Below, piece by piece: positions 36,412 to 45,390 of a stretch of DNA of 64,000 nucleotides; within the stretch, counting starts at the first letter, position 1; each line of letters opens with the position of its first letter. Made by a program: the position numbers and the translations under genes. Origin of the DNA: Pseudomonas chlororaphis (GTDB lineage: Bacteria > Pseudomonadota > Gammaproteobacteria > Pseudomonadales > Pseudomonadaceae); NCBI RefSeq assembly GCF_003731765.1, contig NZ_MOAL01000001.1:682001-746000 (forward strand). The letters are read 5' to 3'. The notes beneath the pieces were generated by a model. The model had not been told where the DNA came from. It searched no databases and worked only from the letters and a program-made list of their open reading frames with translations.

Positions 36412-37068
36412 TCAATGGGCGGGTTTGCTGGCGCTGACGGTCGATAGCCAACTTTTGACCGAGCAGGTGGCAAACACGCTGGTGCTGCAATCGCCATTGG
36501 CCAATGCGCTACGCAGTTTGTCGACATCGGCCTGCATCATGTAGCGAACACTGTCCTTGAAGTGGGTACTTTCGCCGAACCCGCCCTGGGTCATTTCATT
36601 CAGGGCGTCCTCTTTGCTCCAGCCCTGGACCACCACTCGGTACATCGCCGACATCAACCCTGTGCGATCGGAACCGTGCTTGCAATGCATCAGCACCGGG
36701 CCTTGGCTCTCGGCTTCTTGAATGGCCCGCAACGCCGCCAGCACATCGGCATCGTCCACATGGTTGGTCCGATAAGGCAATTGCATCTGCTTGATCCCCG
36801 GGCTCGACAGCCAGTCGGCGTCGGACTCCGGCAGGAAGGTGATTACCGTCCCCACCTTGAGTTTTTCCAGCAACGGCACCGCCCCTTTGTCGGGCAAGGC
36901 GCTGCGATAGAGGGTGGGCGACATCTGATACAGGTTGTATTGCACCTCCACCGGCTGCGCCCATTGTTCCGGGCGAGTCGAGGGCGTGGAGGCGGCCTGC
37001 ACCTGTGGCCACGCGAGCAGCGCCAACAATGACAAACAGAGAGCAGGGAGGACGCGGGTTCTGGACAT
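36412..37068 (-). CDS. Secreted dual-specificity/tyrosine phosphatase
   Basis: It is 218 aa. A signal peptide (MSRTRVLPALCLSLLALLAWPQVQA) precedes the phosphatase domain with the active-site loop VLMHCKHGSDRTGLMSA (CX5R, Cys nucleophile) and a plausible general-acid Asp in NHVDDADVL. It resembles the Siw14-type bacterial PTPs. The substrate, in the periplasm, could be a phosphoprotein or an inositol phosphate. The frame is open to 37152, but the signal peptide sets the start. Confidence 0.85.
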   Translation of the reverse strand: MSRTRVLPALCLSLLALLAWPQVQAASTPSTRPEQWAQPVEVQYNLYQMSPTLYRSALPDKGAVPLLEKLKVGTVITFLPESDADWLSSPGIKQMQLPYRTNHVDDADVLAALRAIQEAESQGPVLMHCKHGSDRTGLMSAMYRVVVQGWSKEDALNEMTQGGFGESTHFKDSVRYMMQADVDKLRSALANGDCSTSVFATCSVKSWLSTVSASKPAH

Positions 37069-37303
37069 GCGCAGTGAGCCGTAGATGAGGGATGGGCGGA
37101 TGCCAGGCAGCTTCGGCCTCGGGCAGTCAAAGGCCCGTGAGGCGTTCGTCAAAGATTCGTGAAGTCGCCGGTTTCAGGGGGCTTTTCCGGTCTTTCGTGA
37201 CGGTTTGCACCCGCTTCGATGGTGGCAAGGATCAAGGCCCAGGCGAACCGGTGCCCTGAAGGTCACGGGGTTTCGGTCGGGCGGTGCTGGTCAGATAAAT
37301 CTG

Positions 37304-37337
37304 GCTCCATTACTGTATGTGCATACAGTAATGGAGC
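37304..37337. promoter_or_regulatory. 34-bp palindrome containing a LexA-type SOS box, upstream of the split radical SAM gene
   Basis: Two perfect 16-bp arms (37304-37319 and 37322-37337) surround a 2-bp centre. The middle 16 bp, CTGTATGTGCATACAG (37313-37328), fit the gammaproteobacterial LexA consensus CTGT-N8-ACAG. The palindrome ends 7 bp before the ATG of the radical SAM fragment, so a bound repressor would block initiation there. From memory the P. aeruginosa orthologue (PA0069) was listed in the LexA regulon. Confidence 0.8.
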
Positions 37338-37344
37338 GCCGTCC

Positions 37345-37575
37345 ATGTTCACGCCTTTACCTCCCCGCGGTCGCGGCACTGCGAGCAACCCGCACAACCG
37401 TTTTGCCGCCCACCGCTCGGTGGCCGAGGACGATGGCTGGTATCAGGAAGTGCCGCTGACCCAAGGCACGGAAGTCCGTTTTGAAACGGCGAAGACCATC
37501 ATCACCCGCAACCAGTCGCCGGACCTGCCCTTTGACCGCTCGATCAACCCCTATCGCGGTTGCGAGCATGGCTGA
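37345..37575 (+). pseudogene. PA0069-family radical SAM protein, N-terminal fragment (split by the element)
   Basis: It encodes 76 residues, MFTPLPPRGRGTASNPHNRF to SINPYRGCEHG, then a TGA created at the insertion junction. The intact family has the Fe-S motif CxxxCxxC in RGCEHGCIYCYARPSHAY and about 350 aa. Only the first cysteine remains here. The rest of the gene resumes at 43590. Joining the halves at the shared GCTG restores the exact motif and frame. Related proteins resemble spore photoproduct lyase and a DNA-repair role is suspected. In the present state no active enzyme can be made. Confidence 0.95.
37571..37574. other. attL core (GCTG)
   Basis: This is the left junction: host GAGCATG joins GCTG and then element ACTGTAGTGCC. 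The 4 bp are shared with attR. The central dinucleotide cut by the recombinase must lie within these 4 bp. Confidence 0.85.
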
Positions 37576-38315
37576 CTGTAGTGCCTAATTGGTACATATG
37601 AGCGCAGGGTGATTTTCTACATATATAGAAGAGAGGTGAGCTGCCACGTCTTGGGGGAGTTTCTCCCTAGGAACATTTAGTGACAAACGGCGCAATCCAG
37701 CCGCAGTAAGGCCTACACGGATGTTCCGCGTTTCATACACATTTTACCCACAGCCTTGTCCACAGGTAGTGCGTTGATAAGCCCCCAAAAACGCATTATC
37801 TTGTACCCCGAATTCCTCCGAGACCCCACATGTAGTGTTTTTGGCTGTTTTCACGGCGAAAAAGCATGCTAAAACGCACTGTTTTCAGCGGTTTTATCAC
37901 TTTTAAGTGCATTCCGATGAGATATGCCGGTAAGGGCTTAATAAGGGCCTATTGAGGCTCTTTCGGTGCGTTTGTGGGCGTTTGGGGGGTGTTAGAGGGG
38001 CGTGAGGGGGGTAATTCGATAATTACGCTCACAGGGGCTCATAGGGGCTTGCAGAGCCTCTGACTTAACGATATGATGCTGACAGAAACGCGAAAACCGC
38101 CAATCAAGGCGGTTTTAGCAGAAGATGTCTACGAGTAGCCACGCCACGTTTGGCGACAGAAACGTGACTACCCGTACCCTCCGACGCATACGTTTCAGTA
38201 CTGTCGAAAGAAGGACGCCATTAAAAGCCAATTGATGCAATTGCGTCAATCGGTGATTGATCGGTGGTCGTCTCCAGACTGTGCGCCTTAACTCAACGTA
38301 CTGGAGACTGCCCTA
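37576..38315. other. 740-bp non-coding, hairpin-rich left arm of the element
   Basis: No credible gene was found. Palindromes seen: TTCTACATATATAGAA (37615-37630, one mismatch pair), GGGAG-TTT-CTCCC (37655-37667), GTAATT-CGAT-AATTAC (38011-38026), a terminator-like hairpin at 38093-38116, and GTCTCCAG/CTGGAGAC (38270-38277 and 38301-38308). G-rich direct repeats of AGGGG lie at about 37990-38060. The density of hairpins suggests a replication origin or a promoter/regulatory region. Confidence 0.6.
38093..38116. terminator. Hairpin with terminator shape inside the element
   Basis: A 9-bp stem AAAACCGCC with GGCGGTTTT and a 6-nt loop is flanked by A and T runs, so it could work in both directions. 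Confidence 0.6.
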
Positions 38316-38447
38316 ATGGACATGTCGATTGGTTTCACCCGCAACACAACCGTCGGTGCCAAAACGGTGCCGGTTCGTCAATATCGTCGGTTCCGCTTCG
38401 GTGAATGGGAAGATGTTTGCCACCACCGCCGTAGCCCGCCGCGTTAA
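38316..38447 (+). CDS. Small basic protein, 43 aa, unknown
   Basis: It reads MDMSIGFTRNTTVGAKTVPV, then an Arg/Tyr/Phe-rich RQYRRFRFGEWEDVCHHRRSPPR, ending TAA. A good GGAG stands 9 nt before the ATG, inside the right arm of the GTCTCCAG/CTGGAGAC hairpin, so translation may depend on RNA folding. The strongly basic aromatic composition suggests nucleic-acid binding. I have a weak impression of similar small proteins in pseudomonad phage-like elements, without certainty. Confidence 0.55.
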   Translation: MDMSIGFTRNTTVGAKTVPVRQYRRFRFGEWEDVCHHRRSPPR

Positions 38448-38795
38448 GACGTGAAAGTCGCCACCAAGCTTGTGCTGATTTGGTGGCTTCCTGCGGCAGT
38501 CCACCCCTAGCGGTGATTTCTTCGCCACTCGCAACACCTCAGGCCTCCCCCCCCCCCCGGTCTGTACTCGAATACACCCTAGGCACCCACCGCCCGAAAT
38601 TCATCTATCGCTATGCTTATATTGATAGCTATAAGCTATCAAAGATACTCCAGAAATGGACGGCCTGCGTGCATCTGTTAGGTACGTGAGTGCCCTCCAC
38701 CTAAGTAGGTGCATCCCGCCCCCCACCCTTAGTGATGGCATCGGGCTATTTCAATGGCTAGTATTGCCAGACCAATTTTTCGTCTGAGAGTAGTC
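38448..38795. other. Gap with poly-C tract and palindrome
   Basis: No gene is recognised. It contains a run of 12 C (38547-38558) and a perfect palindrome with 9-bp arms TTGATAGCT and AGCTATCAA around ATA (38622-38642). The palindrome may be an operator or a recombinase site for the Rap1a gene side of the element. Confidence 0.6.
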
Positions 38796-39164
38796 ATGAA
38801 AGCAGGGATACTAGCCGTGGCTGCACTGGTCGGAATGAGCGGCCTAACTTCACAGGCGCGGGGCGATACTGGGAACGAAATGGCAGAGAACTGCCGTGCT
38901 TTTCTTAAAGAGAAGACACCCAGAGAGCGATACTTTAATGCCGGAGTCTGCGCTGGGTTTGTGAATGGCGTTACAGACACGTTGGTGCTAGCCCGTATAG
39001 CCAGCCCCGAAACTATCGCGATCTGTATTCCCCGCGAAGGGTTCACCATGGGGCAGGCAGCGAGGGTCCTCCTCAAATATCTTGATGATCACCCGGAAAC
39101 TCTTCACGAGAATGCGTCGATGCTGGCGCTTCAAGCCTATAGAGCGGCCTACCCCTGCAATTGA
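38796..39164 (+). CDS. Rap1a/Tai-family secreted protein
   Basis: It is 122 aa. From the ATG at 38796 a signal peptide is formed (MKAGILAVAALVGMSGLTSQARG); a start 42 bp upstream would bury it. The mature part has the family pattern AENCRAFL, FNAGVCAGFVNGVTDTL, TIAICIPREGFTMGQAARVLLKYLDDHPETLHENASMLALQAYRAAYPC with four cysteines. Rap1a and Tai proteins are periplasmic immunity proteins against type VI amidase effectors, but most family members have no assigned effector. No effector gene is visible beside it. Confidence 0.82.
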   Translation: MKAGILAVAALVGMSGLTSQARGDTGNEMAENCRAFLKEKTPRERYFNAGVCAGFVNGVTDTLVLARIASPETIAICIPREGFTMGQAARVLLKYLDDHPETLHENASMLALQAYRAAYPCN

Positions 39165-39215
39165 TCAAGCCATTTAAACTGATGATTGCTGCACGTCGCC
39201 GCATCAGGATCGTAA

Positions 39216-39332
39216 GTGGATGGGCGATTGGATGTTTTGGCTGGAAAAATAACCCAGGGGCACAGCGACTTGCCTGAGCTGTTAAACGAGCTGCAAGAGG
39301 GCTCATTGCAAACTGTTGTTTTCTTAAAATAA
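39216..39332 (+). CDS. Possible 38-aa ORF
   Basis: A GTG with AGGA 6 nt upstream opens MDGRLDVLAGKITQGHSDLP, then ELLNELQEGSLQTVVFLK and a stop. Codon use is plausible and the sequence looks protein-like, but it is short. It may be the tail of a lost gene. Confidence 0.3.
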   Translation: MDGRLDVLAGKITQGHSDLPELLNELQEGSLQTVVFLK

Positions 39333-39393
39333 GTGTTGGGCTGGGTGCCGCTGAGCTTGCCTCTGGTGGACGTTGGGTGCAGTGAACAGGATG

Positions 39394-39933
39394 TCAGTCC
39401 TTCATTGCCCGCTGCACAGTGGAAAGGCTGACGCCAAGTGCCTTGGCCGTATCACGGTAGGACGCCCCGTTGGCGACGTGCGTACGGATTGCATCAGCGT
39501 TGGTGGTCTTCACTCCACCTTTGTAGACGCCTCTCGCCTTGGCCCCGGCGATGCCTTCACGTTGGCGTTCTTTGATCATTGAGCGTTCGAACTGAGCGAC
39601 GGCGCCCATCATGCTCAACATCAAGTCTTGGTTAGCGTTCTGCTCGTTAGTGAACAGCAAGTTCTCTTTGTGGAAATGGACGTTCACACCTCGGGCTTTG
39701 AGGTCACTCACCAGACCAAGCAAATCAACCAAGCTACGGGCAAGCCTATCAATCGAGTGGACATGAATCGTGTCACCCTCACGAACGTAGCGAAGCATTT
39801 CCTGTAAGGCGGGACGCTCAGTAGTGGAACCTGACACCTTGTCTTCAAACACCTGGGCGAAGGTCATGCCATCCAGTTGGCGAGCGGTAGTCTGGTCTAC
39901 CGTTGAAACGCGCTTGTAGCCAACATCTGCCAT
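39394..39933 (-). CDS. Small serine recombinase (resolvase/invertase)
   Basis: It is 179 aa. The catalytic domain starts VGYKRVSTVDQTTARQLDGM (catalytic Ser in YKRVST) and continues DTIHVHSIDRLARSLVDLLGLVSDL, then the E-helix and a C-terminal HTH (ASYRDTAKALGVSLSTVQRAM). It belongs to the Hin/Gin/Tn3-resolvase size class and can invert or resolve DNA between short sites. The ATG has AGGAAC upstream. A GTGTAC/GTACAC inverted repeat is at 40047-40066, upstream of its start. No second copy of the element or invertible segment was seen. Confidence 0.92.
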   Translation of the reverse strand: MADVGYKRVSTVDQTTARQLDGMTFAQVFEDKVSGSTTERPALQEMLRYVREGDTIHVHSIDRLARSLVDLLGLVSDLKARGVNVHFHKENLLFTNEQNANQDLMLSMMGAVAQFERSMIKERQREGIAGAKARGVYKGGVKTTNADAIRTHVANGASYRDTAKALGVSLSTVQRAMKD

Positions 39934-40046
39934 TTCCTTGTTCCTGTATTCATCTGGGTCTAGATGGTGTCATTCTGGCTCTCATGGCCGGTGAAAACAA
40001 CGCTGGAACCCACGAAACTGTATTCATCCGACAAGTGGTCAACAGG

Positions 40047-40066
40047 GTGTACCGTAATGAGTACAC
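40047..40066. promoter_or_regulatory. Inverted repeat upstream of the small recombinase gene
   Basis: GTGTAC and GTACAC arms are 8 bp apart, 114 bp before the start of the resolvase gene on its strand. Small serine recombinases often bind sites next to their own gene. Confidence 0.35.
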
Positions 40067-40146
40067 GCAGACCAGCCAAAATGACCATGGAAATCAACTC
40101 CTAACGCCTACGGAGCTCGAGTCATGCGAAATGCTTAACCCAAGCT

Positions 40147-40968
40147 TCACTTCGCTCGAAAGACACATATCTGAGCAAACTGCTTCCCAAGTGTCGTCAC
40201 CCGGAGCCCTCCCCGTTGAATACTGCACATCCTTAAAGGGTCAGATTCAATGCGCTGCTTCATGAGCAGTACATCTGGATGATTCTCCAAGGGGTCGTAA
40301 ACGCCCTTTGCCGTGTACTCAAAACCCATCCCAGGCACATCTGCCAGACCTAAACGACACAAATTATCGAGATAAGCAGGCGTCATTTGTGGGAATTCAA
40401 CGCCAGCTTCAACACCCAGCAAGGAAAAGTTGGTTAGGACCTCACGCCCTCCCCTACGGCCTTCTTCCTCGACCCGGTAGTTAGAGCTAAGAGTTAGCAG
40501 CGGGTATGCTCGATTTCCAGTGAAGAGCTTCACAAGCTTTGCCTCATCAGGCGTGAGTTGCTTGATAATCTCAACGAATGCCGGATGCGCTCCTGACGCA
40601 GTTTTCTTGTCCATCGAAGACGCGAGCAAATTCGCGTACAAATCGCTTAAATCTTCCTCGTGACCCGTGTATCTCAGTGCTTCGATTGCGGGGCCAGCAA
40701 CATTCGGCTTTGGCGTGATGATGTCTTCAGGCGGAACATCCTTGAGACGATCTGCCACCTTCGTGGATATGAAGTCTTGGCATTTTTCATAACCCCAAAC
40801 CAACGCCCCGACTGGGGCAAGAGCAACGTTGATTGCCTTCCCTACAGTCTCAAGTGCTTTGCCTACCTGCTTCACAGCAGGCTGAGCCAGGTCCTGATAA
40901 ATTGGAATGGCTTGTACCAGCCCTGTTACGGCCTCAACCGTTTCCTTGACCTTGTTATCCTCACCCAT
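40147..40968 (-). CDS. Abi-alpha (DUF4393) domain protein, candidate phage defence
   Basis: It is 273 aa. The N-terminus is amphipathic and partly hydrophobic (AIPIYQDLAQPAVKQVGKALETVGKAINVALAPVGALVWGYEK). It is followed by the DUF4393 core NVAGPAIEALRYTGHEEDLSDLYANLLASSMDKKTASGAHPAFVEIIKQLTPDEAKLVKLF. The Pfam family is named Abi_alpha for an abortive-infection system, although most members are untested. The ATG has GAGGAG 8 nt upstream. It lies 73 bp after the unknown gene at 41042, on the same strand. Confidence 0.82.
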   Translation of the reverse strand: MGEDNKVKETVEAVTGLVQAIPIYQDLAQPAVKQVGKALETVGKAINVALAPVGALVWGYEKCQDFISTKVADRLKDVPPEDIITPKPNVAGPAIEALRYTGHEEDLSDLYANLLASSMDKKTASGAHPAFVEIIKQLTPDEAKLVKLFTGNRAYPLLTLSSNYRVEEEGRRGGREVLTNFSLLGVEAGVEFPQMTPAYLDNLCRLGLADVPGMGFEYTAKGVYDPLENHPDVLLMKQRIESDPLRMCSIQRGGLRVTTLGKQFAQICVFRAK

Positions 40969-41041
40969 TACAGCTCCTCAACGCCATACGCTACGGGACT
41001 GGCAGAACGCCACACTGGCTCATACTCTAGCCACCCTTCCG

Positions 41042-41506
41042 TCAAACCGCATCATTCAATTCGGCTAGATGCTGCTTATTGAGCAATGTCCACCGATTGA
41101 TCCCAACCTTGTCGAATACCTTGGATAAGTCTTGCGGCTTCTGTTTCTCGATTGCCCTTGCGATCTGATCGTGCTTCTCGACGGAGAGCGTCTTGCCCAT
41201 GACGTTCATGATCGACGGGAAGACTTTGTTCGCGATCTTTCGCAGATCTTCGACTTTCTTGGTGGTGAAGATGGTCAGGTAGGCTTGGTGAGTTGCTGAC
41301 CCCTTCTTAAGCGTCTGTATACGGACCAGGAATGGCTGATCTGGGCACCGTCTACGAAGTACCTGTTTGAATCTCACCATGTGCTCAAGCAATGCATGGC
41401 TTTCTTCAGGATCATCGTAGAAGACTGAATGCTGATACGACCATTCGTAGTCACGAAACACTGCCAGATACTTTCTCTTCGTCTTCTCTTCACTGGTTTC
41501 ACTCAC
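41042..41506 (-). CDS. Unknown 154-aa element protein
   Basis: I do not recognise a family. The start is taken as the GTG at 41506 (MSETSEEKTKRKYLAVFRDY), with GGAG 8 nt upstream; a GTG 30 bp earlier is possible. It is soluble, charged and rich in Lys and Glu, with a beta-type middle part (FLVRIQTLKKGSATHQAYLTIFTTKK) and helices after it. No signal peptide or membrane segment is seen. It lies between the integrase terminator and the Abi-alpha gene and may be cotranscribed with Abi-alpha. Confidence 0.65.
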   Translation of the reverse strand: MSETSEEKTKRKYLAVFRDYEWSYQHSVFYDDPEESHALLEHMVRFKQVLRRRCPDQPFLVRIQTLKKGSATHQAYLTIFTTKKVEDLRKIANKVFPSIMNVMGKTLSVEKHDQIARAIEKQKPQDLSKVFDKVGINRWTLLNKQHLAELNDAV

Positions 41507-41839
41507 ACACTGATCTCCATCTACAAATGAACACACTCACTCGGAGTCCCCCTCCTATACTTGCGAACTCAATCGCCCTTCTGCGTCACTAGCCAATAAA
41601 TGCTGGAGCCAGCGTCAACACTGGCGTGCGTGGAAGCTAAGAATGGCGAGTCAGGGACCAATTTTGGACACGATTATGCATTAGTAGTGCGGTAAACCTC
41701 AAACCGGATCGCAATCAAGCCTTTGTTAAACGATCGCCCCAGAAACCGGCCATCCCGCGAGTCGTCACTCTCCGTCACAATGAAAAAACCATATGTCCTA
41801 TATGGGTTTAATAGACGTTTCAGGGAGGTTATTGGCATG
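41507..41839. other. 333-bp gap between integrase and unknown gene
   Basis: It holds the integrase terminator (41783-41810) and, nearer the unknown gene, probable minus-strand promoter DNA. A CCAATTTTGG motif lies at about 41661-41675. No coding frame is convincing. Confidence 0.6.
41783..41810 (-). terminator. Terminator of the large serine recombinase gene
   Basis: On the minus strand an imperfect hairpin (AAACCCATAT/ATATGGTTT) is followed by a run of T. It starts 30 bp after the stop codon. Confidence 0.7.
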
Positions 41840-43552
41840 TCAACGCAAGGGCTTCTTCATCACAGGCGACAACAGCGGTATTGGTGCTTTCCACTGCACT
41901 CCCTTGAGTGTTTCGAGTTCTTCCGGAGTAAAGACGTCGGGCATTGTTGATGGCACTCTGCGACGCTTACCAGCGATCCTGACAGGCCCTTTAACAACCT
42001 TGAAGCGTTTATCTGGTGGACTGCTGATGGTGGCTTGGAACTCCGTAACCTTGCCCTTGAGCGCAGGCTTAACCACCGTGCTGAGGGTCTTTCCCTCGAA
42101 GTCAATCACCAGCGTTTCAAAGATGTTTGACAGGTACCGATTGATCCTTGCTCGCTCCAGTGCAGCCGCCTCGGTACGGTCGTTCAACATCCACTCCACA
42201 CGGTTGCCAATATCCAACCCGGCAATGGTAAAGGCGTCTTCCAGCTCTGATAGTTGTGTTTCAGTGGCTGCCAGCTTGGCACGTGCATCCCTGTCGTCTC
42301 CCTTAGCCTTGGTGAGCATGTCCAGCAGCACGGATTGCCGGTCTGAGTCGTCTTCGTCCATGAGGCGCTGTTGTGTCTGGCTGGTACGTGTGCCGATCTT
42401 CTCTATCAGCGCCAGTAACGCGTCACGCTCACGACGAAGGGTCTTTAGGTCTTCACTGGACTGCATGAAGTAGGTGCGAAGGTTGGTCCAGTGCTCAAAC
42501 TTGAACAGCAAGCGGCGTAGGTGCTCACCTCGGATACTGCGAATTCCTGGCCCTGTGCAACTGTTGCTCATGCTGGCGGTACAGTGGAAATACTCCTTGC
42601 CGGTCTTGAACATGAACCGGACGCTACCGCCACAAGCTGCACACTTCACCAAGCCTCTATAGATGTTGAGATTGCTGGCGTCTTGCTTACCGGCGAAGGG
42701 TTTACGCTTGTTAATGACCGCTTGCACCTCGGCGAACAGGTTCTTGTCCACGACCACCGGGTAATAGTCAGTCAACACCCGGTCGGATGGCATGTTCTTC
42801 CCGGCCTGTTCGCTGTAGTTGGTTATGGTGTGTTCACCAATCAAGCGACGGTTCTTCAACAGGTATTGTACTTGGTGAATCTTCCAACCTGAACCGAACT
42901 GCTCGTTAACCCTTCTGCACGACTCAGCCACGCCGTATTGAAGGGACGCGGTGAACAAGGCCCGTATCTGTTCGGCAATGTCCTCCTTTACCTTGAACCG
43001 GCGTTCTCCATCAATTCGCTCAACCTCAAGCCATTGGGCAACCTTGTCCGTCGTCACGTCGCCCGCCTCCATACGAACATGAGCCTTGGCCCAACCAGCA
43101 CGGCCAAAATCGCTCTTCCGTTTTGACTCGGCGTTGGCACGTTCCATATCGACAAGAATGGTCATGAGGCCACCGAGGTCGAGTGTTCCAGGCGTATACA
43201 CCTGTAGGCGGTCGGCAATGCCAATCCTCAAGCCAGCACCTAGGATTTCAAAGAACAGGGGGACGGCGTGAGCGAGTTGCATCCTCGACATACGGTCGGC
43301 GTTCTCAAACAGGAGAAGGCTACCGGGTGGAATCTCGCCACGTTTTGCACGGTTGATGAAATCACGGAGCTTTCCTTCGTGAGCATTCTTGCCCCGAAAG
43401 CTGGTCATACCGGGGTCGGTGATCTCTTCCACTAATGTCATGTCGTAATGCTTGCAGAAAGCCTCTTGAGCCGCACGCTGACGGGCTTCGGTTGATCCGT
43501 CTGATTGGCGGTCTGTACTCCACCGCATGTATGAATAGACATTGCCTGACAT
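41840..43552 (-). CDS. Large serine recombinase (integrase) of the element
   Basis: It is 570 aa. The resolvase domain opens MSGNVYSYMRWSTDRQSDGS (catalytic Ser12 in YMRWST), with LLFENADRMSRMQLAHAVP and DLGGLMTILVDMERANAE. Then come a recombinase domain and a zinc beta-ribbon (GLVKCAACGGSVRFMF and FHCTASMSNSC). A coiled-coil segment with a charged tail ends the protein. This layout is that of phage-type serine integrases. The ATG at 43552 lies only 37 bp from attR; an in-frame GTG 9 bp upstream is possible. The longer open frame past 43590 is antisense host sequence. Confidence 0.95.
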   Translation of the reverse strand: MSGNVYSYMRWSTDRQSDGSTEARQRAAQEAFCKHYDMTLVEEITDPGMTSFRGKNAHEGKLRDFINRAKRGEIPPGSLLLFENADRMSRMQLAHAVPLFFEILGAGLRIGIADRLQVYTPGTLDLGGLMTILVDMERANAESKRKSDFGRAGWAKAHVRMEAGDVTTDKVAQWLEVERIDGERRFKVKEDIAEQIRALFTASLQYGVAESCRRVNEQFGSGWKIHQVQYLLKNRRLIGEHTITNYSEQAGKNMPSDRVLTDYYPVVVDKNLFAEVQAVINKRKPFAGKQDASNLNIYRGLVKCAACGGSVRFMFKTGKEYFHCTASMSNSCTGPGIRSIRGEHLRRLLFKFEHWTNLRTYFMQSSEDLKTLRRERDALLALIEKIGTRTSQTQQRLMDEDDSDRQSVLLDMLTKAKGDDRDARAKLAATETQLSELEDAFTIAGLDIGNRVEWMLNDRTEAAALERARINRYLSNIFETLVIDFEGKTLSTVVKPALKGKVTEFQATISSPPDKRFKVVKGPVRIAGKRRRVPSTMPDVFTPEELETLKGVQWKAPIPLLSPVMKKPLR

Positions 43553-43589
43553 TGGGTTCACCGTGCATTGGTTCTTTTTAAAGAGTATA

Positions 43590-43593
43590 GCTG
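43590..43593. other. attR core (GCTG)
   Basis: This is the right junction: element AAGAGTATA joins GCTG and then host TATCTACTGC. Removing 37571-43589 leaves GAGCATG-GCTG-TATCTACTGC, which encodes E-H-G-C-I-Y-C. Confidence 0.85.
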
Positions 43594-44422
43594 TATCTAC
43601 TGCTACGCACGGCCCAGCCATGCTTATTGGGATATGTCGCCGGGGCTGGATTTCGAGACCAAGCTGATCGCCAAGAGCAACACCGGCGCGCTGCTGGAGC
43701 AGCAGTTGTCCAAGCCGGGTTATCGCTGCGCGCCGATCAACCTGGGTTCCAACACCGATCCCTATCAGCCCATCGAACGTGAACAGCAGCTCAGCCGGCG
43801 CACCCTGGAAGTGCTGCTGCGCTATCGCCATCCGGTGACCATTGTCACCAAGGGGTCGCTGATCCTCCGGGACCTGGACCTGCTGGTCGAGTTGGCGCAG
43901 CGACGGTTGGTGGCGGTGATGATCAGCCTGACCACCCTGGACGATGAGCTCAAACGCATCCTCGAGCCCCGTGCGGCGGCGCCCAAGGCCCGCTTGCGGG
44001 CAATTCGGGTGATGCGTGAGGCGGGGATTCCGGTGGGGGTCTTGTGTTCGCCGATGATCCCTATGATCAATGACAGCGAGTTGGAGAGCCTGCTCAGTGA
44101 AGCCAAGGCCGCCGGCGCGCAAAGCGCGGCCTATATGATGCTGCGGTTGCCGCTGGAGGTGGCGCCGCTGTTCGAGGAATGGCTGTTGGCGCATTATCCC
44201 CAGCGCGCCGCCCATGTCTTGAGCCTGATCCGCCAGACCCGTGGCGGCGAACTGTACGACAGCCGCTTTGGTGCACGGATGCGCGGTGAAGGCCCCTTCG
44301 CCGAACTTCTGGCCCAGCGTTTTGCCAAAGCCAGCAAGCGCTTGGGGCTTGATCGTCGTGACAACTTCAACCTGGATTGCACGGCCTTTTGTCCGCCAGG
44401 CGGGCAGATGTCGTTGCTCTAG
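43590..44422 (+). pseudogene. PA0069-family radical SAM protein, C-terminal fragment
   Basis: It continues CIYCYARPSHAYWDMSPGLDFETKLIAK through GSNTDPYQPIE and ends PPGGQMSLL, the family C-terminus, about 276 aa. It holds two of the three Fe-S cysteines. The element end keeps the frame open upstream to a TTG at 43568 (MVLFKEYSCIYC), so a truncated protein without the first cysteine could be made. The sequence is otherwise undamaged, with no stop or frameshift, as expected for a recent or reversible split. Confidence 0.95.
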
Positions 44423-44451
44423 CAGCCCATGGCCTAAGGTTTAAGGGCTGC
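44422..44451 (+). terminator. Hairpin after the radical SAM gene
   Basis: GCAGCCC and GGGCTGC arms with a 16-nt loop start at the stop codon. There is no T-run, so this is only a possible terminator. Confidence 0.4.
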
Positions 44452-44655
44452 CCCGGACAGGCTGGTCACGCTTTTGCAGAGGCAATAGTGGCGATCTAGA
44501 GCCTTCCGTTCAGTTTGAGTTAAGTTTTTGCCGCTACCTTGTTCACCAAGTGACCCACAGGTCGCGATGGGCGGTCTGGTTGTTTTTTAATCAATCACTG
44601 GCGTCCTGCCGGATAAATCTGGAAAATTCACCTAATCCGTCAAAGAGGATGAATC

Positions 44656-45390
44656 ATGAGTGACAAGGATAAACAGCCATTGGCTGCATCGGCTTCAGCC
44701 CCCAGCCAGGGCGCCGAAAGCGCCGATGCAGCGCTGCAAAATATCGTTGAGGGTTTTTTGCGTTTTCATCACGAGGTTTTTCCGCAACAGGAAGAACTCT
44801 TCAAAAAACTCGCCACCGCCCAGCAACCCCGGGCGATGTTCATTACCTGCGCGGACTCGCGCATCGTTCCAGAGCTGATCACCCAGAGTTCCCCCGGCGA
44901 CCTGTTCGTTACCCGTAACGTCGGCAACGTGGTGCCGCCCTACGGACAGATGAACGGTGGCGTCTCCACCGCCATCGAGTACGCGGTGCTGGCCCTTGGG
45001 GTGCATCACATCATTGTTTGCGGGCATTCGGACTGTGGCGCCATGCGCGCCGTGCTCAACCCGCAAAGCCTGGAAAAAATGCCCACGGTCAAAGCCTGGC
45101 TGCGCCACGCCGAAGTGGCCAAGACCATGGTTCATGAAAACTGTGATTGCGCCGACGAAAGCGCCAGCATGCATGTGCTGACCGAAGAAAACGTCATCGC
45201 CCAGTTGCAGCATTTGCGCACCCACCCTTCCGTGGCTTCGCGCATGGCTAACGGCCAGTTGTACATCCACGGCTGGGTGTACGACATCGAAACCAGCGCC
45301 ATCAAGGCCTACGACGCCGATCAAGGCTGTTTCCTGCCGCTTGATGGCAGCCATCCGGTGCCGGTTGCGACGCCCAAAGCGCGCTTCTAA
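44656..45390 (+). CDS. Beta-class carbonic anhydrase
   Basis: It interconverts CO2 and bicarbonate with a zinc at the active site. Zinc ligands are in CADSRIVPELI and CGHSDCGAM (Cys, Asp, His, Cys), with the flanking VTRNVGNVVPPYG. The 244 aa include an extra N-terminal tail of about 30 residues. It lies 91 bp before a SulP-family transporter gene, a pairing seen in several bacteria and suggestive of bicarbonate handling. Confidence 0.95.
   Translation: MSDKDKQPLAASASAPSQGAESADAALQNIVEGFLRFHHEVFPQQEELFKKLATAQQPRAMFITCADSRIVPELITQSSPGDLFVTRNVGNVVPPYGQMNGGVSTAIEYAVLALGVHHIIVCGHSDCGAMRAVLNPQSLEKMPTVKAWLRHAEVAKTMVHENCDCADESASMHVLTEENVIAQLQHLRTHPSVASRMANGQLYIHGWVYDIETSAIKAYDADQGCFLPLDGSHPVPVATPKARF

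Follow-up and report, generated by a model that had tools for sequence, protein, structure and literature searches.

The integrase gene of a mobile element in the window (the whole stretch of 64,000 nucleotides of Pseudomonas chlororaphis DNA that was analysed) starts 39 bp from the crossover that joins the element to the chromosome, and this gap consists of the integrase-side half of the attP site and a Shine-Dalgarno site. The DNA upstream of the gene is swapped at this crossover, as it is host DNA at the integrated junction and the left arm of the element at the joint of the circle. A hexamer resembling a sigma-70 -10 box is found in the half-site, and such hexamers are enriched in the corresponding half-sites of related elements in the direction of the integrase. 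As a tentative explanation, possible but far from secure, we propose that the half-site serves both as recombinase site and as integrase leader, and that a promoter split by the crossover would be weak in both states, stronger in the circle, and shut by the integrase. The element of the window will be referred to as W; G-numbers designate genomes of the genus and L-numbers the loci that were compared. The features of W needed for the argument are as follows.

41840-43552, minus strand: large serine recombinase (integrase), 570 aa, with Pfam Resolvase and Recombinase domains and a match to PHROG 95 (integrase)
37573-37574, plus strand: crossover dinucleotide TG of the left junction (attL), from the junctions of 8 elements and the G071 empty site
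43592-43593, plus strand: crossover dinucleotide TG of the right junction (attR), from the junctions of 9 elements and the G071 empty site
43564-43591, minus strand: half-site of attP on the side of the integrase (28 bp), taking up most of the integrase leader, from the attP dyad
37575-37602, plus strand: left-arm attP half-site, which would replace host DNA upstream of the integrase in the circle, from the attP dyad
43584-43589, minus strand: -10-like hexamer TATACT, separated by 2 bp from the crossover dinucleotide and lying in the half-site (TATACT, TATACT, and TATAAT in W, G095, and G367)
43558-43562, minus strand: Shine-Dalgarno-like GGTGA, 5 nt ahead of the ATG, recognized by eye in the sequence

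The integrase has its ATG at 43552-43550 on the minus strand. Two of its domains scored above their Pfam cut-offs (PF00239, 41.9 bits with a cut-off of 23.3; PF07508, 32 bits with a cut-off of 21.1), and the zinc ribbon PF13408 scored 22.2 bits, under the cut-off of 25.3. With these domains the protein is classed as a large serine recombinase, and it is predicted to catalyse recombination between attP and attB. Of the other proteins named below, NrdA, the sulfate permease, the response regulator, and both the tyrosine and the serine recombinases were also confirmed with Pfam. Serine integrases have an attP that is a longer dyad than attB and that lies beside the integrase gene, and the layout of W is ordinary for the family by this description; no difference was found.

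The gene interrupted by W, in a host genome of 7.0 Mb, is a radical SAM gene of the PA0069 family. When the two fragments were compared with NF033668, the upstream fragment covered model positions 1-70 and the downstream fragment positions 68-348, and the gene is broken after the first cysteine (GCEHG) and ahead of the second and third (CIYC) in what we take to be an iron-sulfur motif. When 398 Pseudomonas genomes were searched for the recombinase, 33 had a match at E <= 1e-30, and the integration site was compared in the best 9 of the 33. These nine, W included, are 34-100% identical to W in the recombinase (27-33% for the rest of the matches listed) and form about four groups, which were drawn by identity and not from a tree. 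The radical SAM gene adjoins the recombinase in all nine, and the 8 elements besides W are inserted at the same base of the same gene; for G221 this was read from two contigs, one per junction. Both junctions were available for eight of the nine elements and the integrase side only for G234. The closest relative of W was found in Pseudomonas sp. K2I15 by a scan of genome contigs. Additional genome searches gave no elements beyond the nine, viral contigs searched with two of the integrases gave no further relatives, and all matches in plasmid and phage records were below 60% identity.

An empty site is present in G071, a genome of the same species, and the crossover was derived by comparing this site with the junctions; the remaining attB sites were reconstructed from the joined flanks. 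The dinucleotide common to all compared junctions is CA in the orientation of the integrase (TG on the plus strand), and the two copies in W are 6,019 bp apart. A 2-bp crossover common to attL, attR, and attB is thus found, as for a serine integrase. The attP site is a dyad around this CA, with 14-18 of 28 positions matching compared to means of 6.8-7.4 (14 of 28 in W), and the CA centre ranked first of 371 in all eight elements with both junctions.

Eight of the nine elements found were scored for the distance from the dinucleotide to the integrase start, which was 39, 39, 42, 45, 44, 44, 44, and 44 bp, with start codons chosen by the analyst (GTG for G087). A short gap of 39-45 bp is therefore the rule in this group. 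A preliminary description of this DNA had placed the gene 37 bp from attR; the short gap stands, and the measured distance from TG to ATG is 39 bp, with 37 being within the uncertainty of the attR end. It had also stated that there is almost no room for a promoter within the element, which is too strong, since no -35 box fits inside the element but a -10, a start site, and a Shine-Dalgarno site do. Shine-Dalgarno-like sites were recognized by eye as GGTGA in W and G095 and as AGGAG in G367. Because the half-site and the Shine-Dalgarno site both lie within the element, the start codon is inside the element in both states and only the promoter is in question. The junctions and the G071 empty site agree with the earlier statement that the DNA further upstream is host radical SAM antisense when the element is integrated and the left arm when it is circular. 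With the excised circle deduced from the junctions, the upstream DNA of the integrase is predicted from sequence to differ between the integrated and excised forms.

State-dependent folding of the leader RNA was considered and rejected. The W leader was predicted to fold at -24.9 kcal/mol (z -2.2) in attR with the Shine-Dalgarno site paired with host sequence, and at -8.6 kcal/mol (z 1.5) in attP without this pairing; in the integrated leader RNA (43550-43620, minus strand), host GGGCCGTGC is predicted to pair with element GCACGGTGAACCC and to cover the Shine-Dalgarno site. G095 and G367 do not have this fold and no consistent direction was seen over 8 elements, so the W case is attributed to chance. 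Strong attP folds, as expected from the dyad, were obtained for G285 (z -3.8), G119 (z -3.3), and G009 (z -2.2).

The best -10-like hexamer in the integrase-side 28 bp exceeded mononucleotide shuffles, when scored with a sigma-70 matrix, at P = 1.2e-4 for the nine elements and P = 0.006 with one element per group; taken singly, four of the nine elements had P < 0.05. The controls gave (all elements, then one per group) 0.38 and 0.43 for the other half-site read outward, 0.17 and 0.059 for the same half-site reversed, and 0.83 and 0.47 for the host attB half. The borderline value of 0.059 comes from G087, where a TATAAT is present on the opposite strand. In the mechanism that we propose, the -10 (TATACT, 43584-43589) and the start site (at about 43577, about 7 bp further on) would belong to the element, and the -35 or upstream part would lie across the dinucleotide, in radical SAM antisense when W is integrated and in the left attP arm when it is circular. 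Recombination would exchange the -35 side of the promoter, with weak transcription in both states that would be somewhat higher in the circle, and integrase bound to attP would close the promoter. This autorepression is expected because the left attP arm covers the -35 position. We infer from this arrangement that the hexamer acts as a promoter element, that promoter strength may differ between the two states, and that the integrase may repress its own gene.

Since the -10 lies inside the element, a start site within the element is possible in both states, which is the case that the preliminary description had itself named as contradicting a state-dependent promoter. It would correspond to a state-independent promoter inside the element, in which the -10, TG-extended in several relatives, suffices and the gene is read equally from the chromosome and from the circle. 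Extended -10 promoters need little of a -35, and the best hexamer is preceded by TGn in five of the nine elements (G087, G285, G009, G221, and G234), always within the element. W and its two closest relatives do not have the TGn, however, and the five extended sites have modest -10 scores of 4.0-5.7 even with the TG bonus of 1.5 included. We regard such a promoter as unlikely.

Full sigma-70 sites directed toward the integrase were scored with a matrix over a region that begins 200 bp upstream of the core and ends 30 bp beyond it. At the integrated junction of W the best score was 5.08; for 812 windows of this sequence the null mean was 5.09 and the 90% quantile 7.51. One of the nine integrated junctions, that of G087 (8.45), was over the quantile. 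The circle scored higher than the integrated junction in all eight elements, and its scores (7.57-11.51) were over the quantile in all eight. The left arms have a GC content of 0.38-0.51 versus 0.56-0.64 on the host side. When the circle scores were compared with dinucleotide shuffles of the same left arms there was no enrichment (Fisher P = 0.26 overall and 0.17 with the -10 fixed in the element), and AT content can therefore explain the higher circle scores. The integrated scores of the 8 elements were not enriched over shuffles either (Fisher P = 0.98 and 0.92). When the -10 was required to lie inside the element, attP had a higher top score for a full promoter than attR in all eight elements, and the number of shuffles (of 300) that equalled attP was 156 for W, 232 for G095, 230 for G367, 51 for G087, 138 for G285, 4 for G009, 30 for G119, and 238 for G221. 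The -35 candidates for the TATACT of W are poor, with GTACCA at a spacing of 19 in the circle and GTGCGT at a spacing of 15 in the integrated form. G009 is the most striking single case of a circle promoter (TTTACA, 18 bp, TATGTT), and G285, the integrase of which is 96% identical to that of G009, does not have this -35.

The earlier inference of a state-dependent promoter is thus borne out in part: the upstream DNA is swapped and -10-like hexamers are enriched, but full sigma-70 scores exceed shuffles in neither state. It had been proposed that the integrated integrase is read from antisense DNA of the radical SAM gene; the DNA upstream is indeed antisense, but the junction scores are like those of random windows. 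The radical SAM gene, followed by the carbonic anhydrase and sulfate permease genes, is on the strand opposite to the integrase, and no host gene reading toward the integrase was found near the insertion; an antisense promoter that sequence scores do not reveal is possible. These scores fit a reading in which there is a dedicated promoter in neither state, traces of integrase would come from pervasive antisense transcription or read-through, and the hexamer would be a recombinase contact only. Compared by eye, the sequence GCTATACTC at the hexamer and the attB motif GCCATGCTC have 7 of 9 positions in common, and because the hexamer coincides with a motif common to attP and attB it may be only a recombinase site. 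On the other side, -10-like hexamers are most clearly enriched when the half-site next to the integrase is read toward the gene, and a Shine-Dalgarno-like site is kept inside the element in W, G095, and G367. We consider the absence of any dedicated promoter quite unlikely.

A simple consensus scan of 41500-44000 gave one site compared to 1.3 expected and none at the junction, and a scan of 37400-38800 gave two sites compared to 1.2 expected, one of which is the nrdA-like pair described below. Sigma-54 sites were looked for by eye, and the sole match of an Rfam search of 37000-45000 at E <= 1 was far under its gathering score. Across the attP core from the integrase, the left arm of W contains the following features.

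37659-37845, plus strand: nrdA-promoter-like block, directed into the element and away from the integrase, from alignments of Pseudomonas nrdA upstream regions
37774-37802, plus strand: nrdA-like promoter with -35 TTGATA, 17 bp, and -10 TATCTT, from the alignment and the consensus scan
38316-38447, plus strand: 43-aa ORF that follows the nrdA-like promoter, PHROG 21154 (unknown function)

The left-arm query (37576-38460) matched 284 of the 398 genomes, and most of the matches listed lie within query positions 79-271 (about 37654-37846), with a few elsewhere in the query. In 26 of the 27 loci fetched (L061-L087), nrdA follows the match in the same orientation, and its start is 379-552 bp from where the match begins; the exception, L062, is a short fragment from the end of a contig. 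One nrdA product was checked and has an ATP cone and a ribonucleotide reductase large-chain domain, and at the host locus that was checked the block is flanked by nrdA on one side and by a divergent gene for a response regulator on the other. This position between divergent genes means that a second promoter on the other strand, toward attP, is possible. A DnaA-box-like TTATCCACA (TTGTCCACA in W) and the -35/-10 pair are kept in the alignment, and two aligned stretches, one overlapping the -10, are presumably NrdR boxes, judged against the consensus of this box. In the accessible text of a study of P. aeruginosa, each reductase promoter has two NrdR boxes, the first overlapping the -10 (PMC4409342). 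Like the nrdA promoter of that study (PMC4409342), the block of W, which aligns with the nrdA upstream region of Pseudomonas genomes, includes a stretch that we read as an NrdR box overlapping the -10; the block of W precedes the 43-residue ORF and its host counterpart precedes nrdA. The block is carried by W and G095 and is absent in six of the eight complete elements (the G221 piece is without the first bases of the integrase end).

The 43-aa ORF differs between W and G095 by 7 synonymous and 2 non-synonymous nucleotide differences, and relatives of it were found in 26 of the 398 genomes, also in other mobile elements. The nrdA-like promoter is upstream and in the same direction in 6 of these 26 loci, including all four in which the ORF is at least 88% identical, and none was found within the flank examined in the other 20. 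The promoter and the ORF occur together beside at least two types of serine recombinase. Relatives of the ORF adjoin serine recombinases in L089 and L093 and tyrosine recombinases in L090 and L091. The L093 record (MT836130.1), an unannotated 'Bacteriophage sp.', combines a different large serine recombinase with an nrdA-like block, the 43-aa ORF, and a further ORF similar to one of the G095 element. It is conceivable, though we think it improbable, that integration is wired to a promoter completed at the joint and closed by the integrase, and that a second step, perhaps excision, is wired to the captured nrdA promoter, with the 43-aa protein (possibly a directionality factor or regulator) being made when the host prepares to replicate its DNA. 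A search of the literature by titles and abstract openings, mostly outside subscription journals, found no nrdA promoter in a mobile element.

The left arm could also act on the integrase directly, with a promoter reading across attP in the circle only, like Pcirc of ICEclc, and the integrated gene depending on radical SAM antisense transcription. The best left-arm sites directed toward the integrase scored 8.97 (W, at -89) and 7.57 (at -172 in W and -173 in G095, with identical hexamers), and both W sites overlap the nrdA-derived block, which could carry a promoter toward attP as well. ICEKp1, ICEclc, and ICEEc1 provide precedents in the accessible part of PMC13023037. The left-arm sites do not exceed shuffles, however, as 145 of 300 shuffles were as good in W and 251 of 300 in G095, and the nrdA-like block is missing in most of the complete elements, as noted above. 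In addition, G009 and G285 have a common integrase but a different left arm past -26. On the integrase side 229 of 248 positions are identical in these two elements, and in the left attP arm 18 of 26; past -26 they agree at 28 of 100 positions ungapped and at 53% gapped compared to 52% for shuffled sequence, i.e., they are unrelated. Given integrases that are 96% identical, no promoter common to both elements can lie in this part of the arm, and the exchange means that the deeper left arm is no fixed partner of the integrase. The earlier proposal of a promoter coming from the left arm across attP gains no support from these results, since its scores are not over shuffles, the promoter identified by homology points away from the integrase, and the G009 and G285 left arms are unrelated. 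We find a left-arm promoter doubtful, and retain the promoter split by the crossover as our working explanation.

A promoter formed at the joint has a precedent: the TnpX gene of Tn4451 is said to be read from a promoter at the circle joint, the -10 and -35 of which are joined by circularisation. Like Tn4451, W has a large serine recombinase, and a joint-formed promoter is what our tentative explanation proposes for W; unlike in Tn4451, the joint promoter of W is a candidate, with a poor -35 in the left arm and an enriched -10-like hexamer. State-dependent transcription of the integrase has been documented for ICEKp1, ICEclc, and ICEEc1 in the accessible part of PMC13023037, and the available text on ICEclc gives Pcirc as the promoter of intB13 (PMC2892462). 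In these elements (PMC13023037, same part) as in W, the integrase gene occupies the element end that adjoins the integration site, and the state changes its upstream DNA. There, the sites are tRNA genes, the tRNA promoter serves the integrated form, the integrase is about 200 bp off, and a promoter is found at the other end. In contrast, the integrase of W is a serine recombinase whose gene starts 39 bp from its crossover and lies antisense within a protein gene, and sequence scans identified neither a host promoter reading toward it nor an integrase promoter at the other end. W would be a further case of a state-dependent integrase promoter and not a new kind. What is distinctive is the antisense position in a protein gene together with the captured nrdA promoter across attP, the latter being the more unusual. 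In literature searches, mostly outside subscription journals, for a serine recombinase at the radical SAM/PA0069 site of Pseudomonas, only work on Wolbachia phages matched.

Should the crossover indeed split the promoter, a single recombination event would alter the expression of the enzyme that performs it, which would be a simple memory made of one protein. This can be tested directly, given nine elements inserted at one base of one gene and a pair, G009 and G285, in which left arms have been exchanged in nature. With the captured nrdA promoter, mobile DNA would be able to read the replication state of the host.

W also carries a second, small serine recombinase of the invertase/resolvase type (39394-39933, minus strand) and, as cargo, an Abi_alpha protein (40147-40968, minus strand), the best PADLOC match of which is PDC-S47, a candidate defence gene. 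Resolvase-domain proteins are also carried by the G095, G367, and G087 elements. No relaxase was found among the six W genes scanned. The G009 element (L049:2869-4978) has a relaxase (PF03432) and a MobC-like match just under the cut-off, and some members of the group may therefore be mobilizable.
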